The translations under genes were made by a program, and so were the position numbers. Below the pieces are notes generated by a model, which saw nothing but the letters and a program-made list of their open reading frames with translations, was not told the origin of the DNA and ran no database searches. A stretch of 64,000 bases of DNA from contig NZ_CP072596.1 of NCBI RefSeq assembly GCF_017815535.1, positions 868,001-932,000 of the forward strand. The letters run 5' to 3'. Of this stretch, positions 43,239 through 56,365 are shown piece after piece. Position 1 is the first letter of the stretch; each line of letters begins with the position of its first letter. This DNA comes from Tessaracoccus sp. MC1865. GTDB lineage: Bacteria > Actinomycetota > Actinomycetes > Propionibacteriales > Propionibacteriaceae.

Positions 43239-43643
43239 GTGGGCAAGCGGATCACTGTGGTTGGCGCGGTTTCGGTGCGGGACGGACGCATTCTGGCGGC
43301 CCGCCGGAGCGACTCCATGTCACTGCCCGGGCTCTGGGAGTTCCCCGGTGGGAAGATCGAGCCCGGCGAGACGCCGCAGGAGACGCTGCGCCGCGAGATC
43401 GACGAGGAGCTGGGCTGCACCGTCGAGGTGGGCGACTTCCTCACCCGCACCGAATACCACTACACGTTCGGGCTCGTGGACCTGAGCACCTACTGGTGCC
43501 GGATCGTCGACGGTGAACCTGCGCCGACTGAGCACTCCGAGCTGCGCTGGGTGGACGCCCATGAGCTGACGGAGCTGGAGTGGGCACCGGCTGACGTCCC
43601 GGCCGTCGAACTGATCTTCGCGGCCCGCGGGCAATGGAGCTGA
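43239..43643 (+). CDS. MutT-type Nudix hydrolase
   Basis: Probable 8-oxo-dGTP pyrophosphohydrolase of 134 residues. The Nudix box follows LWEFPGGKIEPGETPQETLR and REIDEELG, all key residues present; the N-terminus ITVVGAVSVRDGRILAARR and the C-terminal ELRWVDAHELTELEWAPADVP are MutT-like. Start GTG at 43239 with GGGAGG upstream and a TAGCCT hexamer at 43207. The end overlaps the helicase gene by 10 nt, so translation of the two is likely coupled. Confidence 0.9.
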   Translation: MGKRITVVGAVSVRDGRILAARRSDSMSLPGLWEFPGGKIEPGETPQETLRREIDEELGCTVEVGDFLTRTEYHYTFGLVDLSTYWCRIVDGEPAPTEHSELRWVDAHELTELEWAPADVPAVELIFAARGQWS

Positions 43644-46597
43644 CAGCGGGCTTTGGCCGCGACCTGACGTTCGGTTTCGTCGACCGCACGCAGACATCAC
43701 CCCGCCTCCACCAGCCCCGGCTGATCGTGAACGAAGGCCGAGACACCATGCTGCGGACGATCCGCCACGAGCTGCGCCGCGCCGAGAGCTTCGTGTTCTC
43801 CGTCGCTTTCGTCACGCCGGGCGCGATCGCCGCGCTGAGACAGGCGCTGCTCGACTTCCCGGGCGCGGGCACCATCGTCACCTCGACGTACCTGGGCTTC
43901 AACTCGCCGGCCGCCTTCGACGAACTGCTCAACCTGCCGCGCATCGAAGTGTTGCTGCTGGACGGCGCCTCGGAGGGATTCCACGCGAAGGGCTATGTGT
44001 TCCGTCAGGAGCACAGCTCGACGGCCATCGTGGGCAGCTCGAACCTCACCGAGTCAGCCCTGCTGCGCAACCACGAGTGGAACCTGCGCTTCTCAGCGTT
44101 GGCGGACGGTGACATCGTGCACCAGCTCGAAGCCGCCGTCGACAGGCAGCGTGCCCGGGCGGTGCCCCTCACCCGCGCCTGGGTGGAGGCCTACCGCAAG
44201 TCCTGGCGACCGCCGGCCGCTCCGAGCGCCCCGCACCAGAGCCCGGAGGCGGGGGCCGGCGCGGCCGGCATGGTCGTCGCCAACTCCATGCAGGTGGAGG
44301 CGTTGGCCGAGATCGACCTGGTGCGGGCCCGGGGGGAGAAGCGCGGCCTCGTCGTGTCCGCCACCGGCACCGGCAAGACCATCCTCGCGGCCCTCGACGT
44401 GCGAACGGCTCAACCGCAACGCATGCTGTTCGTGGTGCACCGGGAACAGATCCTGGACAAGGCCATCGCTGAGTTCCGCCGGGTCCTCGGGGCCCCCGCC
44501 AGAGACTTCGGCAAGTTGGCGGGTGGCCGCCGCGAGGTGGATCGCCGCTACGTGTTCGCCACCGTCCAGTCGCTGTCCAACGCCCTGGGCGACATCGCAC
44601 CGGACGCCTTCGACTACGTCCTCATCGACGAGGTGCACCGGGCCGGAGCCGAGAGTTACCGCCGCATCATCGAGCATCTCAGCCCGGCCTTCCTCCTGGG
44701 CATGACCGCCACCCCGGAGCGCACCGACGGGTTCAACATCTTCGAGCTGTTCCACTACAACGTGGCCTACGAGATCCGGCTGCAGAAGGCGCTGGAGGCC
44801 GACATGCTGGCCCCCTTCCACTACTACGGGGTCACCGACTATGTCACCGGCGACGGTGAGGTCATCGACGACACGACGAGCCTCGCCCGCCTGGTGGACC
44901 GTGAACGCGTCGACCATGTGCTCGCCGCGGTGGAGCGCTACGGGCAGGCGGGGATCCCGGTACGCGGCCTCATCTTCTGCTCCCGCAACGAGGAGGCCAG
45001 ACAGCTGTCCCAGGTCCTCAACGGGCGCACCCTGCGAGGCCGCAGACTGCGCACGATGTCCCTGTCCGGCACGGACTCGGTGCGGGCCAGAGAGGACGCG
45101 GTCGCACGGTTGGAACGGGGCGAACTCGACTACCTCCTCACCGTCGACATCTTCAACGAGGGCGTCGACATCCCTGCCATCAATCAGGTGGTGATGCTGC
45201 GCCAGACCCAGTCGGCCATCGTGTTCACCCAGCAACTTGGTCGTGGCCTGCGCAAGGCCGCCGGCAAGGACTACCTCGTCGTAATCGATCTCATCGGCAA
45301 TTACGCCAACAACTACCTGGTACCGGTGGCGTTGTTCGGCGACTCCAGCCTGTCGAAGGATTCGGTGCGGCAGAATCTCATCGAGGCCGAGGAGGCCGGC
45401 TCGATCGCCGGGCTGTCCAGCGTCAACTTCGACGCCATCGCCCGCGACCATGTCTTCAAGGCCATCGCCCAGGTCAAGCTTGATTCGATGGTGGCGCTGA
45501 AGAAGGCCTACACAGAGATGCGCAACAGGGTCGGGGGAGAGCCGAAGCTCCTGGACTTCGCGCGGTTCGACACTGCGGATCCGGTGGTGCTGGGCACCAA
45601 GGAGAAGAACTACTGGCAGCTGTCGGCCAAGTTCGCCAACGTGCAAGGCCCCACGCCCCGCCAGACCAGACTGCTCAATCTGCTCACGGTGGAGCTGCTC
45701 AATGGGAAGCGGCCGCACGAACTCGTGGTGCTCCGGGCGCTGCTGGAGGAGGGCCGGCTCACCGGGGCCGACATCGTCGAGCGCTTGCGCGCACGAGACT
45801 GCACCAGCACGCCCGAGGTGGTGCGGAGCGCCGTCAGCCTGTTGACTCTCGGGTTCTTCCCGGCGAAGACGAAGCCCAGCTACCATCCGCTCGCGGTCGA
45901 GAGCGACGGCGGACTGGAACTGAGCCCCGAATTCCGCGACGAATGGGCCAACACCGATTTCCGGGCGCAGGCCACCGACGTCATCGACACCGGCCTCTTC
46001 CTCGCCCGTCACCGGCACGGCTGGGCGCAGACGCTGCGCCCTGGCGGGCGCTACTCGCGCAAGGACGCCTGCCGGCTGCTCAACTTCCGCGGCGACGAGA
46101 CGGCCACGCTCTACGGCTACAAGGTGGACGAGTTCTCCCGCACCTGCCCCATCTTCGTGACCTACCACAAGGGCGCCGAGGTGGAGTCCTCAGTGGCCTA
46201 CGGCGACGAGTTCCTCGACGAATCCACGATGCGGTGGTTCACCCGCAGCAGGCTGCATCTCGGCAGCCGGGAGGTGCGTCGCATCGTCGAGCACAGCGTG
46301 GACCTGCACCTGTTCGTCAAGCGTGACGACGCCGAGGGTCGCGACTTCGTGTATCTCGGCACCGTGAGCCCGCACAACGCGCGGCAGGAGACGATGCCCA
46401 CGGACGACCGGTTGTCCGTCGTCACGATGCACCTGCGTCTCGACGAGCCGGTGGAACGCGGACTCTACGACTACCTCACGGCCGGCCCGGCCCCCGCCCA
46501 GGCGACAGTGGCAGATCTGGGTTGGCGGGAGGCAGCGCTTGACCTGCCGCTATTCGCTCATCCTGGAACCGCGCAAACGGACAAGGTAGTGCCATAA
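43634..46597 (+). CDS. PLD-like nuclease domain - SF2 helicase - DUF3427 protein
   Basis: Large nucleic-acid enzyme of 987 residues. Residues about 30-190 are a phospholipase-D-type domain with one HKD-like site (HAKGYVFRQEHSSTAIVGSSNLTESA). Residues about 220-600 are a superfamily 2 helicase of the restriction-enzyme R-subunit type: Walker A ATGTGKT (about 243), DEVH box (about 332), GMTATPER, and motif VI QQLGRGLRKAAGKDYLVV. Residues about 800-970 match DUF3427 (RRIVEHSVDLHLFVKRDDAEGRDFVYLG). Stand-alone members are widespread and poorly studied; a role in DNA repair or in restriction of foreign DNA is plausible. Coupled to a MutT gene. Confidence 0.88.
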   Translation: MELTAGFGRDLTFGFVDRTQTSPRLHQPRLIVNEGRDTMLRTIRHELRRAESFVFSVAFVTPGAIAALRQALLDFPGAGTIVTSTYLGFNSPAAFDELLNLPRIEVLLLDGASEGFHAKGYVFRQEHSSTAIVGSSNLTESALLRNHEWNLRFSALADGDIVHQLEAAVDRQRARAVPLTRAWVEAYRKSWRPPAAPSAPHQSPEAGAGAAGMVVANSMQVEALAEIDLVRARGEKRGLVVSATGTGKTILAALDVRTAQPQRMLFVVHREQILDKAIAEFRRVLGAPARDFGKLAGGRREVDRRYVFATVQSLSNALGDIAPDAFDYVLIDEVHRAGAESYRRIIEHLSPAFLLGMTATPERTDGFNIFELFHYNVAYEIRLQKALEADMLAPFHYYGVTDYVTGDGEVIDDTTSLARLVDRERVDHVLAAVERYGQAGIPVRGLIFCSRNEEARQLSQVLNGRTLRGRRLRTMSLSGTDSVRAREDAVARLERGELDYLLTVDIFNEGVDIPAINQVVMLRQTQSAIVFTQQLGRGLRKAAGKDYLVVIDLIGNYANNYLVPVALFGDSSLSKDSVRQNLIEAEEAGSIAGLSSVNFDAIARDHVFKAIAQVKLDSMVALKKAYTEMRNRVGGEPKLLDFARFDTADPVVLGTKEKNYWQLSAKFANVQGPTPRQTRLLNLLTVELLNGKRPHELVVLRALLEEGRLTGADIVERLRARDCTSTPEVVRSAVSLLTLGFFPAKTKPSYHPLAVESDGGLELSPEFRDEWANTDFRAQATDVIDTGLFLARHRHGWAQTLRPGGRYSRKDACRLLNFRGDETATLYGYKVDEFSRTCPIFVTYHKGAEVESSVAYGDEFLDESTMRWFTRSRLHLGSREVRRIVEHSVDLHLFVKRDDAEGRDFVYLGTVSPHNARQETMPTDDRLSVVTMHLRLDEPVERGLYDYLTAGPAPAQATVADLGWREAALDLPLFAHPGTAQTDKVVP

Positions 46598-46604
46598 TCG
46601 AGCG

Positions 46605-47276
46605 ATGACCACCACGCGCGACGACAATCTCGGCCAGACGCAACGCTCCCTGGCCGAGCGTGCGCGCGACGTCATCCGCGACCGCATCACCACCGGCGCC
46701 TACCAGCCCGGGTACCGGATCAAGGAGCGCGACCTCTCCGAGGAGCTGGGCATTTCGCGCATCCCGGTGCGCGAGGCGCTGGCCGGGCTGTCGACGGAGG
46801 GCTTCATCACCCTGCAGCCCCGCCGCGGCGCGGTGGTCACCGAACTGGTCCCGGAGGACCTGCGGGAGATCTTCGAGCTGCGCGAGGCCCTCGAGGTGCA
46901 GGAGGTCGAGCTCGCACTCAAGCACGGCAGCGAAGCGGAACGCGCCCGGCTGCTGCGCGTCGTCGAGAAGGAACAGTCCGCCCTGAAATCTGGAAACCGC
47001 GACCTGGTGCGCCGGTACAACGCGGAGTTCCACGAGGTGCTGGTCCAGATGACGCACAACTCGCTCATGGCGTCGATGCTGGAACCGCTGCGCAACCGGT
47101 TGAACTGGTTGTTCAAGCAGAATGACGACCCGGCCGCCATCTGCGGCGAGCACTTCGAGATCGCCCAGGCCATCGTGTCGGGGGACAGGGCCAAGGCGCG
47201 GGCGCTCGCCGAAGTGCATGTGGGGACCTCACTGCGGCTCGCCCACACGCTCCTCTTCGGCGACACAGAAGCCTGA
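46605..47276 (+). CDS. GntR-family regulator, FCD subfamily
   Basis: DNA-binding regulator of 223 residues: winged helix at about 15-80 (YRIKERDLSEELGISRIPVREALAGLSTEGFI) and the all-helical FCD effector domain after it (LREIFELREALEVQEVELAL; FHEVLVQMTHN; EHFEIAQAIVSGD), with conserved Asp/His for a metal. CATAAT lies 6 nt before the ATG and overlaps the helicase stop, so it has its own leaderless promoter. It converges with the carbamate kinase gene and probably regulates the carbamoyl cluster through the palindrome at 48218-48233. Confidence 0.9.
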   Translation: MTTTRDDNLGQTQRSLAERARDVIRDRITTGAYQPGYRIKERDLSEELGISRIPVREALAGLSTEGFITLQPRRGAVVTELVPEDLREIFELREALEVQEVELALKHGSEAERARLLRVVEKEQSALKSGNRDLVRRYNAEFHEVLVQMTHNSLMASMLEPLRNRLNWLFKQNDDPAAICGEHFEIAQAIVSGDRAKARALAEVHVGTSLRLAHTLLFGDTEA

Positions 47277-47282
47277 CGCGGG

Positions 47283-48215
47283 TCAGGAGCGGAGGACGGT
47301 TCCGGCCTTGCCCTCGAGGGCAGCGCCGATCTTGTCCAGCGCGGTGATGACGCCCATGGGCCCACCCTGTTCGACGAAGCGGCGGATCGCCGCGACCTTC
47401 GGGCCCATGGAACCGGCGCCGAACTGCCCCTCGGCCTCGTGGCGGCGGATCTCCTCCAGGCTCACCTCACCGAGCGGGGCCGCGTTGTCCTTGCCCCAGT
47501 TGACCCATGCGTTGTCCACGTTGGTGGCCAGCACGAGGGCATCGGCGCCCAGCCGGCGGGCCAGCAGCACGCTGGCCAGGTCCTTGTCGATGACGGCCTC
47601 AACGCCGTGCAGCACGCCTTCGGCGTCGCGTGTGACGGGGATTCCGCCACCGCCGCCGGCCACGACGAGCAGGCCGGCCTTCAGCAGCGCGTCGATCGCC
47701 GGGGCGTCGAGGATCTCGATCGGTTCGGGGCTGGGCACGAGCCGGCGCCAGCGTCCGGGCTCGATCTCGCTGAGCATCTGGCCGAAGTGGCTCAGGCGCT
47801 CTGCCGTCGCTTCGTCCACGTAACGCCCGACGGGCTTGGTGGGCTTGTCGAACGCCGGGTCATCCGCAGCGACGAGCGCACGGGTGACGACGACGGCGGG
47901 CAACATGTCGATCTGACGGTGCGCCAGTGCACGGTCCAGGGCGTTGAGCAGGATGAAGCCGATCGAGCCCTGCGTATTGGCGACACACCAGTCCAGGGGG
48001 ACCGGAGTCAGCACGTAGGCGGCCAGGTCGTTCTTGGCCAGGATGTTGCCCACCTGCGGGCCGTTTCCGTGGGAGATCAGCACCTGGTGGCCGTCGTGGG
48101 CCAGAGCTGCGATCTGTTCCGCCGCCGCCTCGACGGCAGCGATCTGGTGATCGGCCCGGACCGATTCTCCGGGGCCGGTCATTGCGTTGCCCCCCAGGGC
48201 TACCAAGATCCTCAT
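47283..48215 (-). CDS. arcC: Carbamate kinase
   Basis: Converts carbamoyl phosphate and ADP to ATP, ammonia and CO2 in catabolism. The 310-residue protein has the family start MRILVALGGNAMTGPGE, HGNGPQVGNIL, VVVTRALV, VVAGGGGGIPV, AVIDKDLASVLLA and GSMGPKVAA. In E. coli the comparable gene next to fdrA (ybcF, allK) serves allantoin fermentation. It is transcribed away from the ankyrin-DUF2877-FdrA-DUF1116 genes, with a perfect palindrome 2 bp upstream of its ATG. That position would let a bound regulator block both directions. Confidence 0.94.
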   Translation of the reverse strand: MRILVALGGNAMTGPGESVRADHQIAAVEAAAEQIAALAHDGHQVLISHGNGPQVGNILAKNDLAAYVLTPVPLDWCVANTQGSIGFILLNALDRALAHRQIDMLPAVVVTRALVAADDPAFDKPTKPVGRYVDEATAERLSHFGQMLSEIEPGRWRRLVPSPEPIEILDAPAIDALLKAGLLVVAGGGGGIPVTRDAEGVLHGVEAVIDKDLASVLLARRLGADALVLATNVDNAWVNWGKDNAAPLGEVSLEEIRRHEAEGQFGAGSMGPKVAAIRRFVEQGGPMGVITALDKIGAALEGKAGTVLRS

Positions 48216-48217
48216 GT

Positions 48218-48233
48218 ATATGGTATACCATAT
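48218..48233. promoter_or_regulatory. Perfect 16-bp palindrome, probable GntR operator
   Basis: ATATGGTATACCATAT contains TGGTATACCA, the form of operator (TGGT-N2-ACCA) bound by several FCD-type GntR regulators. It lies between carbamate kinase and the ankyrin-headed operon and overlaps TATACC-type -10 sequences on both strands. The GntR gene at 46605 is the natural candidate. Confidence 0.75.
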
Positions 48234-48281
48234 GCCAGAGGGTTTAAGAAGGCAGAGACGCCCGGAGAACAGGCAGGAAAG

Positions 48282-48884
48282 ATGACTCACACCGCATGGC
48301 CGGACATGGTGGCCGGTGCCGCCGCCGACGAGGTTCGCGCACAGCTCGCAGGCGGGGCTGACCCCAACGCGACGGCGACCGGAGCGCAGGCCCGTTCCTC
48401 CGCGGTGTTGATCGCGGCGAGCGCAGGCAACACCGAGGCGCTCGAGGTGCTGATCGAGGCCGGGGCCGATATCAACGCCCAGAACCGCATCTCCCTCAAC
48501 CCGTTTCTGTGGGCCTGCATCAACAACGACCTGACCTTGGCGCGCCGGATGGTGGAGGCCGGCACCGACCTCGAGCTGGTCACCCGGTTCGGGGGAGTGG
48601 GCATCCACCCCTGCGCGGAGAAGGGGTTCGTGGAACTCACACGCTTCCTGGCCGAGGAGACCGACGTCAACGTCAACCACACCAACATCTGTGGCTGGAC
48701 ACCGCTCCTCGAGGCGATCATTCTCCGCGACGGGGGTCCCGCGCAGCAGGAGATCGTGAAGATCCTCCTCGACGCCGACGCGGACCCGAAGATGGTCGAC
48801 CAGTGGGGCGTCACCCCGCTGCAGCACGCCGAGAAGATGGGCTTCACCGAGATCGCCGAGCTCCTCGTAGCAGCAGGCGCCTGA
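48282..48884 (+). CDS. Ankyrin-repeat protein
   Basis: Cytoplasmic 200-residue protein made almost entirely of about five ankyrin repeats, e.g. SAVLIAASAGNTEALEVLIE with AGADINAQ, GVGIHPCAEKGFVELTRFLA, GWTPLLEAIILRDGGPAQQE and GVTPLQHAEKMGFTEIAELL. There is no signal peptide or catalytic motif. AGGAAAG precedes the ATG. It is first in the operon with DUF2877, FdrA and DUF1116 genes, so it probably binds or assembles one of those proteins; this is inference from position only. Confidence 0.85.
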   Translation: MTHTAWPDMVAGAAADEVRAQLAGGADPNATATGAQARSSAVLIAASAGNTEALEVLIEAGADINAQNRISLNPFLWACINNDLTLARRMVEAGTDLELVTRFGGVGIHPCAEKGFVELTRFLAEETDVNVNHTNICGWTPLLEAIILRDGGPAQQEIVKILLDADADPKMVDQWGVTPLQHAEKMGFTEIAELLVAAGA

Positions 48885-48885
48885 C

Positions 48886-49683
48886 ATGACCGTGATGAGG
48901 GCGCTCGTGGCTGACCGGGAGTTCACCTCCTGGGCCGCCAACCGCCCGCGTGCGCGAGTCCACTCGGTCTTCGCGCGCACCGTCAACATGATCGACGCCT
49001 CCGGCCTCTGGACCCTCGCAGCCGCGACGGTGCCGGTGGGGCCGCGCACCGCTGTACTGGACATGCCGTCGGCAGCAACACTCAAGCTCGCCGTCGGAGA
49101 TGAGGTGGATCTCGCCTCCGTCGACCTCAGGAACGCCACCACCTGGAATCCCGCCCGCTGGCCGTTGCGGATCACGCGCAGCGCGGTCGAGGTGGTGCGG
49201 GCGCACCTGCCCGTCACCAACGCGACGGACCCGTTCGAGCGCGCGGCAGAGGGGCGGATCGCCACGCACGCGGTGCGACTCCAGACCGCGGTGAGCGGCG
49301 GCGACTTCACCACCACCAAGATCGCCGCAGGGGGCCTCATCGGCCTCGGCCCCGGTCTCACCCCGGCCGGTGACGACCTCCTCGCGGGCTTCATCATCGG
49401 CTGCCACGTCACGGGTCGCGACGCAGCCCTGCGATGGCTGCGCTCCGCCGTCGCGGAGCACGCCGCGGCCACCAACGACATCAGCCTCACGATGCTGACG
49501 GCGGCCCTCGACGGCCGCGCGACCAGCGTCCTCCACCACCTCGTCGATGCGCTCGGCGCAGGCGACACCGACCGCCTCGTCGCGGCCACCAACCAATGCC
49601 TCGCGGTCGGGCACACCTCAGGACTGCACATTGTGGGCGGACTCGTCGCCGCCCTGGAACTCACTGAAAGAGGTCATCGATGA
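48886..49683 (+). CDS. DUF2877 protein (AllH/YlbF-like)
   Basis: Protein of 265 residues with the DUF2877 signature GLIGLGPGLTPAGDDLLAGFIIG and C-terminal GHTSGLHIVGGL. The E. coli homologue YlbF (AllH) is reported as one of three subunits of oxamate carbamoyltransferase together with FdrA (AllF) and YlbE (AllG). It starts 1 nt after the ankyrin stop and overlaps fdrA by ATGA, which agrees with one complex. The enzymatic role of this subunit is not clear. Confidence 0.87.
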   Translation: MTVMRALVADREFTSWAANRPRARVHSVFARTVNMIDASGLWTLAAATVPVGPRTAVLDMPSAATLKLAVGDEVDLASVDLRNATTWNPARWPLRITRSAVEVVRAHLPVTNATDPFERAAEGRIATHAVRLQTAVSGGDFTTTKIAAGGLIGLGPGLTPAGDDLLAGFIIGCHVTGRDAALRWLRSAVAEHAAATNDISLTMLTAALDGRATSVLHHLVDALGAGDTDRLVAATNQCLAVGHTSGLHIVGGLVAALELTERGHR

Positions 49684-51236
49684 CGACAACAACGACGCTC
49701 ATCAAGAAGAACACCTACATCGACTCGGTCTCACTCATGTCGGTCTCGACGAAGGCCAACGCGCTGCCGGGTGTGCAGCAGGCCTTCACCGCCATGGGCA
49801 CCCCCATGAACAAGGAGGTGCTGGAGGGTCTCGGCCTGCTGAGCGGGGAGGTCGCCGAAGCCACTCCCGGTGACCTCATCCTCATCGCCATCACCGACGA
49901 CGGCGTCGACACCGATGAGGTCATGGGCCAGGTCCAGGAACTCCTCGTCCGCAAACCCCGCGGCGACGAGGAATCCGAGATCACCTACCGCACCCTCAAG
50001 GGCGCCGCCGGTGGCCGCAAGGACGCTAATCTCGCAGTGATCTCCGTGAACGGCGCGTTCGCCGCGAACCAGGCGCACGCGGCGCTCGACGCCGGGCTCA
50101 GCGTGCTGATGTTCTCCGACAACGTCTCCATCGAGGACGAACTGTCCCTCAAGCGCAAGGCGCACGACAGGGGCCTGCTCATGATGGGACCGGACTGTGG
50201 CACCGCCATCCTCGGCGGCGTCGGTCTCTGCTTCGCCAACGAGGTACGTCGCGGGCACATCGGCATCGTCGGTGCCTCCGGCACCGGCAGCCAGGAGATG
50301 AGCGTGCGCCTGCACGCCTTCGGCGGCGGCATCAGCCACCTCATCGGCACCGGCGGCCGCGACCTCTCCGAGGAGATCGGCGGCATCATGATGCTCGACG
50401 GCATCGCCGCGCTGGACGCGGACCCGGGCACCGACGTGCTCGTCGTCGTGTCCAAGCCGCCGGCACACTCCGTGGCGAGCAAGGTCATCGACGCGCTCGC
50501 CGCCTCGAAGAAGCCCGCCGTCGTGTGCTTCCTCGGCGCCCCACAGGAACTCCTGGACGAGGCCGAGGACAAGGGCGTCAAGGCGTTCAACCGCACCAAG
50601 CCCGCCGTCATCGCCGCCCTCGAGGCCAGCGGCGTCGACACCAGCACCATGAACCTCCACCCCCTCAACTGGCCCCTCATCGAGGAGGTCCGCGGCAAGC
50701 TCGCTCCCGAGCAGCGCTACATCCGCGGCATCTTCGCCGGGGGCACGCTCTGCGACGAGGCCATGTTCCTCGCTCTGGAGGACTTCGACGACGTCTACTC
50801 CAACCTGCGCTCCGGTGAGTTCCACCTCGGGGCCGGCGACACGTCGAAGGGCCACACCTTCCTCGACTTCGGCTCGGACGAGTTCACCAACGGCAAGCCG
50901 CACCCCATGATCGATCCGTCCAACCGTATCCAGCGCTTCCTGGAGGAGGCCGCTGACCCGGAGACCGGCGTCATCGTGCTCGACTTCGTCCTGGGCTACG
51001 GCGCCAACCCCGACCCCGTCGGCGTGATGCTGCCCGCCATCAAGCAGGCCAAGCAGCAGGCTGCCGCTGAAGGGCGCCACCTCGAGGTCCTCGCCTTCGT
51101 GCTCGGCACCGAGGGCGACCCACAGGACTTCGACTCGCAGGTCAACCAGCTCACGGACGCGGGCGTCACGTGGGCATCGTCTTCCACCAACACCGGGCTC
51201 CTCGCCCGCGAATTCGTCAAGAAGGGCAACAACTGA
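49680..51236 (+). CDS. fdrA: FdrA (AllF-like) acyl-CoA-synthetase-fold protein
   Basis: 518-residue protein related to succinyl-CoA synthetase alpha. It shows the N-terminal block IDSVSLMSVSTKANALPGVQQ of the family, GPDCGTAILGGVGLCFAN, GIVGASGTGSQEMSV and a C-terminal domain with VIVLDFVLGYGANPDP. In E. coli it is needed, with YlbE and YlbF, for carbamoyl transfer from oxalurate to phosphate. It overlaps the DUF2877 gene (ATGA) and the DUF1116 gene (TGATG), so the three should be made in fixed proportion. Confidence 0.92.
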   Translation: MTTTTTLIKKNTYIDSVSLMSVSTKANALPGVQQAFTAMGTPMNKEVLEGLGLLSGEVAEATPGDLILIAITDDGVDTDEVMGQVQELLVRKPRGDEESEITYRTLKGAAGGRKDANLAVISVNGAFAANQAHAALDAGLSVLMFSDNVSIEDELSLKRKAHDRGLLMMGPDCGTAILGGVGLCFANEVRRGHIGIVGASGTGSQEMSVRLHAFGGGISHLIGTGGRDLSEEIGGIMMLDGIAALDADPGTDVLVVVSKPPAHSVASKVIDALAASKKPAVVCFLGAPQELLDEAEDKGVKAFNRTKPAVIAALEASGVDTSTMNLHPLNWPLIEEVRGKLAPEQRYIRGIFAGGTLCDEAMFLALEDFDDVYSNLRSGEFHLGAGDTSKGHTFLDFGSDEFTNGKPHPMIDPSNRIQRFLEEAADPETGVIVLDFVLGYGANPDPVGVMLPAIKQAKQQAAAEGRHLEVLAFVLGTEGDPQDFDSQVNQLTDAGVTWASSSTNTGLLAREFVKKGNN

Positions 51237-52654
51237 TGAGCATCGCAGACCTCCTGACCAACCCGCTGTCGGTCGTCAACGTCGGGGCCGAGATGTTCGC
51301 CGACGACATCGCCACCCAGGGCGCCCGCGTCACGCACCTCGACTGGACCCCGCCCGGTGGCGGCCGGCCCGACGTGATCGCCGCGCTGACCAAGCTGGCT
51401 GATCCCGCCAACGCCGAGCGCATCGAGGCCGCCAACGCCATCGCGCTGGAACGCATCGTCACCTCCCAGCCCATGCTGGTGGGCTTCGGTCAGGCCCTCG
51501 ACGTGGTGCCCGGCATGACGAAGAAGACCATCCTGCACGCCGGCCCGCCCATCGAGTTCCAGCGCATGGCCGGCGCCATGAAGGGCGCCGTCACCGGCGC
51601 GCTGGTGTTCGAGGGCCTCGCCAAGGACCTCGACGAGGCCTATGAGTTGGCGCTCTCGGGAGAGATCGACTTCAGCCCCTGCCACGAGCACAACGCGGTG
51701 GGTTCCATGGCCGGCGTAACCTCCGCATCGATGTTCATGCACGTGGTGGAGAACCGCCCCTACGGCAACTACGCCTACACCAACCTGTCCGAGCAGCTCG
51801 CCAAGATCCTTCGGATGGGCGCCAACGACCAGAGCGTCATCGACCGCCTCAACTGGATGCGTGACGTGTTCGGCCCGATCCTCCGCGACGCCATGGTGTC
51901 GGCCAAGGAGATCGACCTGCGCATGATGCTGGCCCAGGCCATCCACATGGGCGACGAGGCCCACAACCGCAACAACGCCGGGACCGCGCTGCTCATCCAG
52001 GCCCTGACGCCGCACATCCTCGAGTCGGGCTTCTCGACGAAGGACAAGCAGGACGTCTTCAACTTCGTGCTCAGCTCCGACTACTTCTCGGGCCCCACCT
52101 GGATGGCCACCTCCAAGGCCGCCATGGACGCGGCGCACAACATTCCGGACTCCACCGTCGTGACCACGATGTGCCGCAACGGCGTGGAGTTCGGCATCCG
52201 GGTCTCCGGCATCGGCGGCAACACCTGGTTCACCGGGCCGGCCCAGCGTGTCGTCGGCCCGCTGTTCGCCGGTTACACGGTGGAGGACTCCGGCCTCGAC
52301 ATCGGCGACTCCGCGATCACCGAGACCTACGGCATCGGCGGCTTCGCCATGGCCGCAGCCCCGGCGATCGTCCCCCTGGTGGGCGGCACCGTCTCCGAGG
52401 CCATCGGCTACTCGAAGACCATGATGGACATCACCACCGGGACCAACCCGAACATCACGATCCCGCTGCTGGACTTCCGTGGGATCGCCAGCGCCATCGA
52501 CGTGCGCAAGGTGGAGGACACGGGCATCCTGCCCGTCATCAACACCGCCATCGCGCACAAGGACGCCGGCATCGGCATGATCGGTGCAGGCATCACCTAC
52601 CCGCCGCTCGAGGCGTTCCACACGGCAACTCTCGCACTGGCCGAGAAGTTCTGA
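51236..52654 (+). CDS. DUF1116 protein (AllG/YlbE-like)
   Basis: 472-residue protein with the DUF1116 landmarks NVGAEMFADDIATQGARVTHLDW, LHAGPPIEFQRMAGAMKGA, CHEHNAVGSMAGVTSASMFMHVVENR and RNGVEFGIRVSGIGGNTWFTGPA. E. coli YlbE (AllG) is the matching subunit of the oxamate carbamoyltransferase. The conserved His/Glu/Asn-rich segments suggest it holds the active site, but that is inference. It shares one nucleotide with the fdrA stop. Confidence 0.92.
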   Translation: MSIADLLTNPLSVVNVGAEMFADDIATQGARVTHLDWTPPGGGRPDVIAALTKLADPANAERIEAANAIALERIVTSQPMLVGFGQALDVVPGMTKKTILHAGPPIEFQRMAGAMKGAVTGALVFEGLAKDLDEAYELALSGEIDFSPCHEHNAVGSMAGVTSASMFMHVVENRPYGNYAYTNLSEQLAKILRMGANDQSVIDRLNWMRDVFGPILRDAMVSAKEIDLRMMLAQAIHMGDEAHNRNNAGTALLIQALTPHILESGFSTKDKQDVFNFVLSSDYFSGPTWMATSKAAMDAAHNIPDSTVVTTMCRNGVEFGIRVSGIGGNTWFTGPAQRVVGPLFAGYTVEDSGLDIGDSAITETYGIGGFAMAAAPAIVPLVGGTVSEAIGYSKTMMDITTGTNPNITIPLLDFRGIASAIDVRKVEDTGILPVINTAIAHKDAGIGMIGAGITYPPLEAFHTATLALAEKF

Positions 52655-52713
52655 ACCTCACCACAATCGGTGGGCAGGGTTGCCCACCGTCCACCCTTGA
52701 AAGGGGAAACATC

Positions 52714-54201
52714 ATGTCAACGCTCTCTGTTGACGCTGCTGACGTAGTGGAGATCTCGGACGAGACCTTCGCCGAGTACGCGTCGCGCGGCTACTCGGAG
52801 GAGGTGCTGCCGGTGCGCCGCAAGGACCGCACCTGGGGTATCCGCAACTTCGCGACGGTGTGGATGGGGCCCATCCACAACATCCTCAGCTACTTCACTG
52901 TCGTCGGTTTCTTCGCCTTCGGCCTGTCCGCCTGGCAGGTCATCGGGGCCATCATGACGGCGGCGGTCATCGTGTCGATCGGCTACGTCCTCAACGGCCA
53001 CGCGGCCGCCAAGTACGGTGTGCCGTTCGCGATGCTCATCCGCGACACCTTCGGCGTCAAGGGCGCCGTGTTCCCGGCACTGCTGCGTGGCCTCATCGCC
53101 GGCTTCGTCTTCTTCGGCCTCACCACTGTGTCCTCGGCCCAGGCCCTCGACGTCGTGTTCGAGCGGCTCTTCCCGGGCTTCCTGAACCTCGGTGGGGGAG
53201 CGGACGTGCTCGGCCTCCCCATCCCGACGCTGATCAGCTACGTCGTGATGTGGGTCGTCACCGTGGTGCTCTACCTCGCCGGCCAGAAGTTCATCGGCAA
53301 GTTCTCCGACTGGGCCTCGCCCGCCGTCTGGATCCTGATGGTCGTCGGTGTCATCATCGCGATCAGCAACGCCGGCGGCGTCGGCGACGTGCTCGCGCTC
53401 GACCCGATCACCGAACCGGTCACCGTCGTCGGCTTCGTCACCTGCGTCTCGATGCTCGTGTCCAACTGGGCCGGCCCGATCGTCAACATCGCCGACATCT
53501 CGCGCACCGCCGCCAACCAGCGCGCGCCACGCCTGGGGTTCCCCATCGGCATGATCGTGTCCTACATCCTGTTCGCCATCGTGACGGTGTCGTTCATGGC
53601 CAGCCTGTACGCCGTCAGCGGCGGTGAGATCGACGTCAACAAGCCCACGGTCTTCGTCGACGCCATCAACTCGATCGGCAACCCCTTCATCGTCATCCTG
53701 CTGATCCTGGCCATGAACGTCGGCGCCACCGCCTTCGTCGTGTTCGGCAACATGCTGCCCTCCGGGCTGCAGATGACGGCCCAGCTGCCCAAGTGGTTCA
53801 CCGTGAAGACCGGCGGCCTCCTCGCCGCCGTCGTCGGCACGCTGATCCTGCCCTGGCAGTTCGTGGAGAACACCACGATGCTCTACCTCTTCTACAGCTT
53901 CATCGGCTCGATGTTCGGCCCCATCGCCGGCATCATGCTCGCCAGCTACTACCTCGAGCGCAAGCGCGTCCTTAACCTCGACAACATCTACACCGCCCCC
54001 GGTGCGGACGGCGCGTACCCGGGCGGCGTCAACTGGCGCGCGATCGGCGTGCTGGTCGTCAGCTTCGTCGTGACCATGTCCGGGAAGCTCTTCAGCGGCG
54101 TCGAACTGCTGGCCACCATCAACAACTGGGCCTTCTTCTGCGGCCTCATCATCGGGTTCGTGGGCTACCTGCTCGTCCGTCCCCGCACCACCACCAACTG
54201 A
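52714..54201 (+). CDS. NCS1-family nucleobase/ureide permease
   Basis: Cation symporter of 495 residues with about 12 hydrophobic segments, related to cytosine (CodB), allantoin (PucI) and hydantoin (Mhp1) carriers. Recognisable parts are RTWGIRNFATVWMGPIHNIL before helix 1, GHAAAKYGVPFAMLIRDTFGVKG, SNWAGPIVNIADISRT and the helix-8 region. AAAGGGG lies 7 nt before the ATG. Placed after the FdrA-type genes, it most likely imports the cluster's substrate; a heterocyclic base, hydantoin or ureide is expected. Confidence 0.9.
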   Translation: MSTLSVDAADVVEISDETFAEYASRGYSEEVLPVRRKDRTWGIRNFATVWMGPIHNILSYFTVVGFFAFGLSAWQVIGAIMTAAVIVSIGYVLNGHAAAKYGVPFAMLIRDTFGVKGAVFPALLRGLIAGFVFFGLTTVSSAQALDVVFERLFPGFLNLGGGADVLGLPIPTLISYVVMWVVTVVLYLAGQKFIGKFSDWASPAVWILMVVGVIIAISNAGGVGDVLALDPITEPVTVVGFVTCVSMLVSNWAGPIVNIADISRTAANQRAPRLGFPIGMIVSYILFAIVTVSFMASLYAVSGGEIDVNKPTVFVDAINSIGNPFIVILLILAMNVGATAFVVFGNMLPSGLQMTAQLPKWFTVKTGGLLAAVVGTLILPWQFVENTTMLYLFYSFIGSMFGPIAGIMLASYYLERKRVLNLDNIYTAPGADGAYPGGVNWRAIGVLVVSFVVTMSGKLFSGVELLATINNWAFFCGLIIGFVGYLLVRPRTTTN

Positions 54202-54228
54202 TCGTCCCCACAGACAAAGGAGTTCCTC

Positions 54229-54696
54229 ATGGACGAATACTTCAAGCTCGCCGTCGACGCCACCATGGAAGGCATGCGTGAGGGCACCGGCGGACCGTTC
54301 GGCGCCACCCTCGTCGACAAGAACGGCGAAGTCATCGCCGCCGTCGGCAACACCGTGCTCAAGGAGATGGACCCCTCGGGCCACGCCGAGCTCGTCGCGG
54401 TCCGTGAGGCCTGCGCCACGTTGAACACGCTCGACCTCAGCGGCTCGACCATGTACGCCACGTGCGAGCCCTGCCCCATGTGCGTGGCCGTGATGATGTG
54501 GGCCGGCGTGGAGAAGTGCTATTACGCCTCCACCCGCACCGACGCTGCGGAGGCCGGGTTCTCGGACCAGCACCTGCGCGACTTCCTCGACAAGACCGAC
54601 CCCACCCTCTTCGACCTCGAGCATCTCGAAGAGGGCCGCGAAGACTGTGCTGAGATCTGGACCGAGTTCGGTCGGCTGAAAGCCGAGCGGGCCTGA
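54229..54696 (+). CDS. Nucleoside/guanine deaminase-like enzyme (CDA fold)
   Basis: Zinc hydrolase of 155 residues. The motifs are GPFGATLVDKNGEVI, HAE (zinc ligand and proton shuttle) in SGHAELVAVREAC, and CEPCPMC with the two Cys ligands. The segment YYASTRTDAAEAGFSDQHL resembles guanine deaminase GuaD of Bacillus, rather than the tRNA deaminase TadA. AAAGGAG precedes the ATG. It closes the cluster and ends at a strong terminator. The substrate may be guanine or another amino-heterocycle brought in by the permease. Confidence 0.88.
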   Translation: MDEYFKLAVDATMEGMREGTGGPFGATLVDKNGEVIAAVGNTVLKEMDPSGHAELVAVREACATLNTLDLSGSTMYATCEPCPMCVAVMMWAGVEKCYYASTRTDAAEAGFSDQHLRDFLDKTDPTLFDLEHLEEGREDCAEIWTEFGRLKAERA

Positions 54697-54711
54697 CCCA
54701 CAGCACACTGA

Positions 54712-54747
54712 GAACCCCGCCAGGCGTCCCCCTGTCTGGCGGGGTTC
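54712..54747 (+). terminator. Intrinsic terminator of the carbamoyl cluster
   Basis: A 12-bp perfect stem GAACCCCGCCAG with its complement around a 12-nt loop, followed by GTCATTT, starts 16 nt after the deaminase stop. Confidence 0.85.

Positions 54748-54814: not shown

Positions 54815-56365
<1,551 letters not shown>

Follow-up and report, generated by a model that had tools for sequence, protein, structure and literature searches.

The window examined here, a stretch of 64,000 nucleotides from the genome of Tessaracoccus sp. MC1865, contains a catabolic operon of the Yah type, whose closest relative in Escherichia coli is the yahDEFGI operon. It combines a carbamate kinase with homologs of AllF, AllG, and AllH and with genes for an ankyrin-repeat protein, an NCS1 permease, a GuaD-like deaminase, and a GntR-family regulator. 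We regard it as probable that this set encodes a ureide transcarbamylase system, which would import and deaminate its substrate and split a derived ureide with phosphate, yielding carbamoyl phosphate and ATP. In E. coli, AllF, AllG, and AllH form oxamic transcarbamylase (OXTCase), with all three genes being needed for oxamate formation, and the carbamate kinase AllK acts after this enzyme (PMC11326118). Gene candidates for OXTCase had been proposed from genomic context in 2012 (PMC3364942), and its activity together with that of the kinase has been shown experimentally (PMC11326118, PMC9843812).

An earlier note on this DNA, made from the sequence alone, had listed the kinase, DUF2877, FdrA, DUF1116, NCS1, deaminase, ankyrin, and GntR genes, all of which were recovered in Pfam and NCBIfam scans. 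It had also treated FdrA, DUF1116, DUF2877, and the carbamate kinase as one functional set, and they do look like one, with families matching those of the E. coli OXTCase and its kinase. The operon type is real and conserved and the chemistry suggested for it is plausible; its nearest relative, however, had been misnamed.

Affiliation of the cluster with the Yah type

All coordinates are positions in the window, and all gene calls were scanned with Pfam and NCBIfam. The AllG/YahG-family subunit (DUF1116; positions 51236–52654, plus strand; PF06545, 291 bits, cut-off 27) is 72% identical to E. coli YahG over 467 residues, compared to 46% identity to AllG over 413 residues. The AllF/YahF-family subunit (FdrA, succinyl-CoA-synthetase-alpha-like; 49680–51236, plus strand; NF004760, 475.9 bits, cut-off 433) shares 57% identity with YahF and 38% with AllF, and the ankyrin-repeat protein (YahD family; 48282–48884, plus strand; PF12796, 98.5 bits) is 49% identical to E. 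coli YahD. The identities of the carbamate kinase (40% to YahI, 41% to AllK) and of the AllH/YahE-family subunit (29% to AllH, 22% to YahE) do not decide between the two types. The E. coli relative named in the earlier note was AllFGHK, whereas F, G, and the ankyrin protein are closest to YahF, YahG, and YahD; the yah operon with its ankyrin gene had gone unmentioned. In E. coli K-12, the block yahD-yahE-yahF-yahG-(yahH)-yahI-yahJ lies apart from the allantoin block, which carries fdrA-ylbE-ylbF-ybcF.

Phylogenetic analysis of AllG led to the same grouping. In a tree of 88 rows (85 different sequences, with three repeats that all fell inside the Yah clade), the window protein and YahG belonged to a clade of 73 rows with a Shimodaira-Hasegawa-like approximate likelihood ratio test (SH-aLRT) support of 100, and E. 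coli AllG was placed outside. A second tree of 86 rows, built from selected loci of the first set together with others from further Actinomycetota, recovered the same Yah clade with 32 rows (SH-aLRT 100). Both were quick trees calculated without bootstraps, and some long branches were flagged, including that of E. coli AllG in the first tree. Nine AllG alignment columns were nearly fixed within the Yah branch (at least 90%) and nearly fixed to another residue elsewhere (at least 80%). At eight of the nine, E. coli AllG agrees with the non-Yah sequences, and at column 281 it has a third residue.

Gene neighborhoods of the Yah branch

The loci surveyed came from a species-level search (one genome per species), in which the best 80 of 131 relatives of the window AllG were kept, and from a draw across the phylum, in which the AllG family occurred in 49 of 396 genomes and at 51 places outside the window's genome. 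Of these places 44 were covered, as 43 loci, and four loci from the window's genus were added. A locus was assigned to the Yah type if its AllG was at least 60% identical to the window AllG; AllG lengths of 380–560 residues and at least 6 kb on each side were required. This resulted in 57 Yah loci and 37 other loci, excluding the short duplicates L001–L005, the window itself, and the repeat stretches L134 and L136, which correspond to L009 and L072. Genes were called by our own scripts and neighbors were labeled by BLAST against seeds, some of which had been named by eye. The loci are related to each other, and the counts do not represent independent events.

An ankyrin gene was found nearby in 43/57 Yah loci and in 0/37 other loci, and we conclude that this gene belongs to the Yah system. 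The carbamate kinase (46/57 vs 17/37) and AllH (49/57 vs 24/37) occurred near AllG in both sets, and a similar gene set and order was seen in loci of three phyla. NCS1 genes (12/57 vs 0/37) and genes for the GuaD-like deaminase (labeled GDA; 11/57 vs 0/37) were detected in Yah loci; all 11 GDA genes were located beside an NCS1 gene, and NCS1 without GDA occurred once. CodB-like permeases (16/57 vs 1/37) and a permease labeled 'NCS2x' (21/57 vs 3/37) were further neighbors. NCS2 (0/57 vs 13/37), the XDH-like large subunit (0/57 vs 11/37), AtzD (0/57 vs 4/37), and the PF04199-type hydrolase (0/57 vs 4/37) were confined to the other loci, and the isochorismatase family was found in both (5/57 vs 6/37). 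YahJ was present at 7/57 Yah and 2/37 other loci and was hence not treated as defining for the Yah type. A mutual exclusion of GDA and YahJ was considered and dropped: the 11 and 7 occurrences did not overlap, but only about 1.4 shared loci would be expected by chance.

Within the window's genus, the AllG family was found in 4/39 genomes, compared to 36/39 for guaB, which follows the cluster in the window. In G001 and G036, two other carriers in the genus, the Yah cluster and guaB are on separate contigs; the cluster is therefore an accessory unit in this genus. The Yah clusters of these two genomes have a different permease, and GDA was not seen in the stretch examined.

Several additional genes were observed at Yah clusters. 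A permease-like protein of about 545 residues without any Pfam or NCBIfam match (L025:10482–12119 and relatives) recurs at the permease position. A heliorhodopsin gene (PF18761; L072:4056–4901) is located between the GntR and carbamate kinase genes, and a 281-residue gene occupies the same place in L009; genes at this position were seen in Yah clusters of Tessaracoccus and Arachnia, PF18761 having been tested in L072. A protein with three tandem RidA units follows the Yah cluster of a Trichococcus (L062:14180–15511), and a similar gene is present in L060; a derivation of AtzD-type ring openers from joined YjgF/RidA units has been reported (PMC3758960). In Neisseriaceae-type clusters (L059, L064, L067), the gene after the complex encodes a DUF1097 membrane protein (tested with Pfam in L064), and E. 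coli YahC, encoded beside yahD, is related to the protein of L067 (29% identity, E = 2e-10).

Organization of the cluster

The GntR-family (FCD) regulator gene (46605–47276, plus strand; PF00392, 59.6 bits, cut-off 27; PF07729, 84.6 bits, cut-off 24) is followed by the carbamate kinase gene (ArcC/YahI/AllK family; 47283–48215; PF00696; PRK12352, 285.6 bits, cut-off 266), which lies on the minus strand, divergent from the ankyrin gene. The kinase, scanned without its first three residues, scored 339 bits against TIGR00746 and thus below the cut-off of 358. A plus-strand series then encodes the ankyrin protein, AllH (DUF2877; 48886–49683, plus strand; PF11392, 82.9 bits, cut-off 25), AllF, AllG, the NCS1 permease (52714–54201, plus strand; PF02133, 230 bits, cut-off 23.5), and the GuaD-like zinc deaminase of the cytidine deaminase fold (54229–54696, plus strand; PF00383, 77.9 bits, cut-off 25). 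The gaps in this series are 1, −4, −1, 59, and 27 bases: the ankyrin gene lies 1 bp from the AllH gene, which overlaps the AllF gene by 4 bp, and AllF and AllG overlap by 1 bp. The last cluster gene ends at 54696 and guaB begins at 54848, 151 bases downstream. Longer open reading frames at the ankyrin, AllG, and NCS1 loci were taken as 5' read-throughs, and the starts were set at the likely ATG. The GC content of the cluster is 67.3%, compared to 68.1% for the window.

AllF contains the Pfam domains Ligase_CoA and CoA_binding and has a solved relative in 3dmy; that of AllG is 3clq. In AllH a GLGxGLTPxGDD stretch is conserved, and a sequence search for solved relatives of this subunit found none. 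The N-terminus of the window AllG (51251–51397) weakly matches residues 507–554 of E. coli AllF (33% identity over 49 residues, E = 2e-4), and the segment shared by the AllG N-terminus and the AllF C-terminus may have moved between the subunits.

Upstream of the cluster lies a large helicase gene (43634–46597) with ResIII, DUF3427, and PLD-like domains. It had matches at E = 1e-100 or better in 6/39 genomes of the genus, itself included, and is an accessory gene, perhaps with a role in defense or repair.

Ankyrin protein and putative operator

Eighteen positions are invariant across 48 members of the ankyrin family, a set that includes the window protein and E. coli YahD. The segment around EKG, N, GW, L, E, L, and DG differs from the ordinary ankyrin consensus. 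In several Pseudomonadota and Bacillota, the ankyrin protein is longer (362–426 residues in 12 sequences), and its C-terminal part looks TPR-like by eye. On the basis of gene association alone, we propose that the ankyrin protein is a dedicated partner of the F-G-H complex.

The divergent gap between the kinase and ankyrin genes is 66 bases long and contains the perfect palindrome ATGGTATACCAT (48220–48231; strand not applicable). This was the one match in the window at up to two mismatches, with 0.17 expected. The core TGGTATACCA was intergenic in 9 of 47 distinct ankyrin-bearing loci scanned; the remaining loci, including those of Microbacterium, lacked the exact core. The palindrome is therefore plausible as a putative GntR operator for the window's branch. 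The sequence cluster of the window GntR regulator spans 25 loci.

Deaminase and permease

The closest solved structure to the deaminase is guanine deaminase (1tiy/1wkq; E = 2.7e-30), with a deoxycytidine deaminase and guanosine deaminases next and weaker matches to TadA and cytosine deaminases. The protein keeps the zinc motifs HAE and PCPMC (PCxxC) as well as a TDAAEAGF-D segment. The Asp aligned with residue 114 of 1tiy is also kept, and the C-terminal part is unaligned. At motif level, the description as guanine-deaminase-like in the earlier note is right.

The NCS1 permease shares 36% identity with E. coli AllW and scored 377 bits against the NCBIfam allantoin permease model, below the cut-off of 620. 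Trp117 and Gln121 in transmembrane helix 3 (TM3) of Mhp1, which presumably have a role in that permease, align with Phe133 and Thr137 in the window permease (numbering from the alignment), and Asn314 aligns with Val342; the positions corresponding to Trp220 and Asn318 are conserved. AllW retains the TM3 Trp and Gln. Because this pair is not kept in the window permease, allantoin or hydantoin as the imported substrate is weakened, and we doubt from the alignment that the permease would carry such compounds.

Search for an allantoin route and a ring opener

The cluster itself contains no allantoin genes, as had been stated earlier. The window's genome (one contig, 3.04 Mb, 99.9% complete) contains Amidohydro_1 domains at three places. 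The first is dihydroorotase (616 bits, cut-off 538), which scored 230 bits against the allantoinase model with its cut-off of 358; the second is NagA-like with 218 bits, just below the cut-off of 226, and the third passed no NCBIfam model. The XDH molybdenum-binding domain PF20256 (control positive in 6/14), Hydantoinase_A (HyuA, PF01968; control positive in 6/14), and the PF04199 hydrolase (control positive in 8/14) gave no match in this genome. PF09663 was also without match, but its control was equally silent and the result carries no weight. Two isochorismatase-family places were found, and the 187-aa frame at one of them (L141) is nicotinamidase-like by eye only. The search for an allantoin pathway elsewhere in the genome, whose presence would have refuted the earlier note, was therefore negative for the markers tested, a set that did not cover AllC-type M20, AllD, PuuE-type allantoinase, and PF07969.

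Clustering of neighbors in the Yah loci from the genus and species-level searches yielded no recurring ring-opening hydrolase other than the isochorismatase family (5/57), although genes present at one locus were not all identified. A candidate from Trichococcus and Oceanobacillus (c62) was discarded, as it reads as a membrane protein without a Pfam or NCBIfam match. The imported compound could already be an open ureide; otherwise, an unlinked enzyme from a family outside those tested would act as the opener.

Sister operons in other lineages

In other Actinomycetota, the complex is encoded in long co-directional runs. The run at L097 comprises, in this order, genes for AtzD-type and YahJ-type proteins, NCS2, carbamate kinase, AllH, AllF, AllG, three XDH-like subunits, CoxG, a GatA-like amidase, HyuA, and HyuB. 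Of these, CoxG, HyuA, and the amidase were verified with Pfam, and the names of HyuB and of the two small XDH-like subunits were assigned by eye. The full set is also found in L096, L102, and L108, and parts of it in L099, L101, L103, L104, and L132. Among 47 loci, AtzD was located in the same run as AllG at 8, the XDH-like large subunit at 9, and AtzD, XDH, and AllF together at 5. The AtzD-type enzyme of L097, the one compared, matched solved barbiturase best (521 bits vs 318 bits for the best cyanuric acid hydrolase), and the four AtzD-type enzymes tested also passed the NCBIfam model for cyanuric acid hydrolase. In NCBIfam, the XDH-like large subunit of L097 falls under group 5 'aerobic CO dehydrogenase'. 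For the YahJ-type proteins of L097 and L138, the nearest models were those for cytosine deaminase, with scores below their cut-offs. Some related runs also contain a deaminase (L094, L097, L099, L101), and that of L094, which has no AtzD in the stretch fetched, is a small protein with HGE and SPCWYC motifs.

In such operons, a deaminase could convert cytosine to uracil, a molybdenum hydroxylase would form barbiturate, and the AtzD-type enzyme would open it to ureidomalonate, which is an acylurea like oxalurate. The F-G-H complex would then split ureidomalonate with phosphate into malonamate and carbamoyl phosphate, with the kinase producing ATP and the amidase malonate. A cyanuric acid/carboxybiuret reading of the same operons is an alternative. 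Without naming the window's substrate, the sister operons support a general role of the complex in ureide phosphorolysis and suggest that the family handles several acylureas. G036, a species of the window's genus, carries a Yah cluster (L134) and, in addition, a complex with XDH-like genes on its flanks (L133); the two therefore probably serve different routes.

Further variants were noted in other lineages. In selenomonad-type loci (L074–L077, L083), the neighbors of the complex are XDH-like genes, a PF04199 'cyclase' hydrolase (tested with Pfam in L077), and an NCS2-type permease, and AllF of L074–L077 lacks a PHPM-D motif common to most others. Isochorismatase-family hydrolases adjoin the complex in L078, L071, and L046–L048. 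The one in L078 is close to solved biuret hydrolase 6xjm (E = 3.5e-79), and the one in L046 is nearest to RutB and then BiuH, below both NCBIfam cut-offs.

Proposed function and alternative explanations

In the ureide transcarbamylase system that we favor, the NCS1 symporter would import an amino-substituted nucleobase-like compound, from which the GuaD-like deaminase would remove the amino group. The F-G-H complex would use phosphate to cleave the derived ureide, releasing carbamoyl phosphate and an amide or amine, a step modeled on the E. coli OXTCase precedent, and the carbamate kinase would transfer the phosphate to ADP, giving ATP and carbamate, which would decay to ammonia and CO2. The ankyrin protein would act together with the complex, and the GntR protein may act at the palindrome in the kinase/ankyrin gap and thereby regulate transcription in both directions. 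The earlier note had proposed an energy-yielding route. Its catabolic, ATP-yielding part is a fair inference from a set that includes a nucleobase-type permease and a base deaminase; a ring opener for the route was not found.

Several observations weigh against this proposal. No GDA, YahJ, or NCS1 gene was detected near AllG in 38/57 Yah loci, so deamination by GDA or YahJ is not obligatory. The ankyrin gene is absent nearby in 14/57 Yah loci and was found in 0/43 loci of the phylum draw, in which the Yah type is consequently uncommon. AllH of the window shows low similarity to its two E. coli relatives, and the column differences of the Yah-clade AllG may affect the activity itself and not only the substrate. 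No candidate ring opener was found in the cluster, the Yah neighborhoods, or, for families with a working control, the genome, and no assay of a Yah-type complex was found in the open-licence literature.

The cluster might instead encode an ordinary OXTCase, with oxalurate or a near precursor being imported and split as by AllFGHK and the deaminase being incidental. The Pfam families are shared with AllF, AllG, AllH, and the kinase, OXTCase is the sole activity found demonstrated for the family (PMC11326118), and oxalurate requires no ring opening, which fits the absence of a found hydrolase. We nevertheless consider this rather unlikely, since identities and both trees separate the window from AllG and group it with the Yah clade, the residue at eight AllG columns is not the one shared by E. 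coli AllG and most of the family, and the GDA genes of the Yah clade always stand beside NCS1 (11/11). In addition, E. coli K-12 keeps both operons, and the yah and all operons are therefore unlikely to be redundant. A different interpretation of the FdrA domains is that the protein is an acyl-CoA synthetase, as annotated, and that the operon is no transcarbamylase system. The Ligase_CoA and CoA_binding domains and the NCBIfam name agree with this, but succinyl-CoA synthetase activity was not observed for E. coli FdrA (PMC8550087), AllFGH has OXTCase activity (PMC11326118), and the carbamate kinase recurs in 46/57 Yah loci, which makes it very unlikely. That the genes are chance neighbors without a functional unit has a probability close to nil: the limited carriage of the AllG family in the genus (4/39) would agree with it, whereas the overlapping genes and the similar gene set and order in three phyla would not.

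Two more specific routes concern the nature of the imported base. In a purine route, guanine would be imported and deaminated to xanthine, an unlinked hydrolase would open the ring, and the complex would phosphorolyze the ureido group of 4-ureidoimidazole-5-carboxylate. The kinship of the deaminase to B. subtilis-type guanine deaminase with its TDAAEAGF-D segment points in this direction, as do the XDH-like, NCS2, and PF04199 genes beside the complex in selenomonad relatives. Yet the XDH molybdenum domain, PF04199, and Hydantoinase_A were not found in the window's genome, GDA is absent nearby in 46/57 Yah loci, and the substrate would be an aryl urea and not an acylurea such as oxalurate, and we regard this route as unlikely. 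It also seems improbable that cytosine-like bases are imported and deaminated and that the complex receives a ureide derived from uracil, as suggested for the barbiturase operons. This pyrimidine route would account for the CodB-like permeases (16/57 Yah loci) and for YahJ (7/57), which among solved structures is nearest to N-isopropylammelide hydrolases and then to cytosine deaminase; barbiturase operons use the same complex, and L094, from the same branch, has the HGE/SPCWYC deaminase. Neither XDH nor AtzD occurs in the Yah clade (0/57 each), however, and the window deaminase has the GuaD-type HAE/PCPMC motifs, unlike that of L094.

Extending the ureide transcarbamylase interpretation beyond the window, we tentatively consider, at less than even confidence, that AllF-AllG-AllH is the prototype of a wide family of acylurea phosphorylases through which bacteria gain ATP from the breakdown of nucleobases. 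The Yah system, in E. coli as in the window, would be a four-part form that includes the ankyrin protein and acts on a new, non-oxalurate substrate, and the sister operons, with barbiturase and a molybdenum hydroxylase, would convert uracil via ureidomalonate to malonamate and carbamoyl phosphate in an energy-conserving oxidative pyrimidine pathway.

Comparison with known systems

The arginine deiminase pathway proceeds by deimination, phosphorolysis to carbamoyl phosphate, and ATP formation by carbamate kinase. The logic suggested for the window's operon is analogous, whereas the transcarbamylase of that pathway has an unrelated fold and acts on another substrate. The barbiturase-like operons (L096, L097, L102, L108) share with the window the complex, the kinase, and a nucleobase-type permease; they differ by their AtzD-type ring opener and XDH-like subunits, by the lack of an ankyrin gene, and by their placement in another AllG clade. 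If they work as proposed, they would represent an energy-conserving form of the oxidative pyrimidine pathway, of which we found no description in the open-licence literature; likewise, no paper joining barbiturase and carbamate kinase was found there. More broadly, the data suggest that the recently identified OXTCase is perhaps one member of a broad family that converts several ureides to carbamoyl phosphate and ATP.

The occurrence of AllFGH apart from allantoin genes is in itself no novelty, having been reported for nitrifier genomes: in comammox Nitrospira, allFGHK occur without upstream allantoin or purine genes, beside biuret/triuret genes, and ureide use has been proposed (PMC12625717). 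These clusters resemble the window's in lacking the upstream genes and in the proposed use of ureides; they differ by nearby isochorismatase-type hydrolases and bmpA-nupABC, and the excerpt of that paper mentions no ankyrin gene, but a codB gene for some archaeal biuH contigs (PMC12625717). The E. coli allFGHK genes encode the same three subunit families and a carbamate kinase; they lie beside allantoin genes, with no ankyrin gene in the annotated stretch, and the window's cluster is the opposite on both counts.

For the yahDEFGI operon, we found no functional study in the open-licence literature, and the main text of the E. coli OXTCase, kinase, and FdrA papers does not mention yahF. YahJ has a predicted twin-arginine translocation (Tat) signal and is described as a Tat substrate without assigned function, and deleting it mildly reduced fitness in an infection model (PMC7549933). 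The present analysis provides a functional frame for an operon present in E. coli K-12 itself, and the question can be tested in this laboratory strain. The two clusters differ in several respects: the yah block contains the CodA-like amidohydrolase YahJ, a co-directional yahI, no annotated NCS1 gene, and a nearby LysR-type gene (yahB), whereas the window's cluster has the GuaD-like deaminase without YahJ, a divergent kinase gene, an NCS1 permease, and a GntR regulator. Common to both are the ankyrin, DUF2877, FdrA, DUF1116, and carbamate kinase genes.

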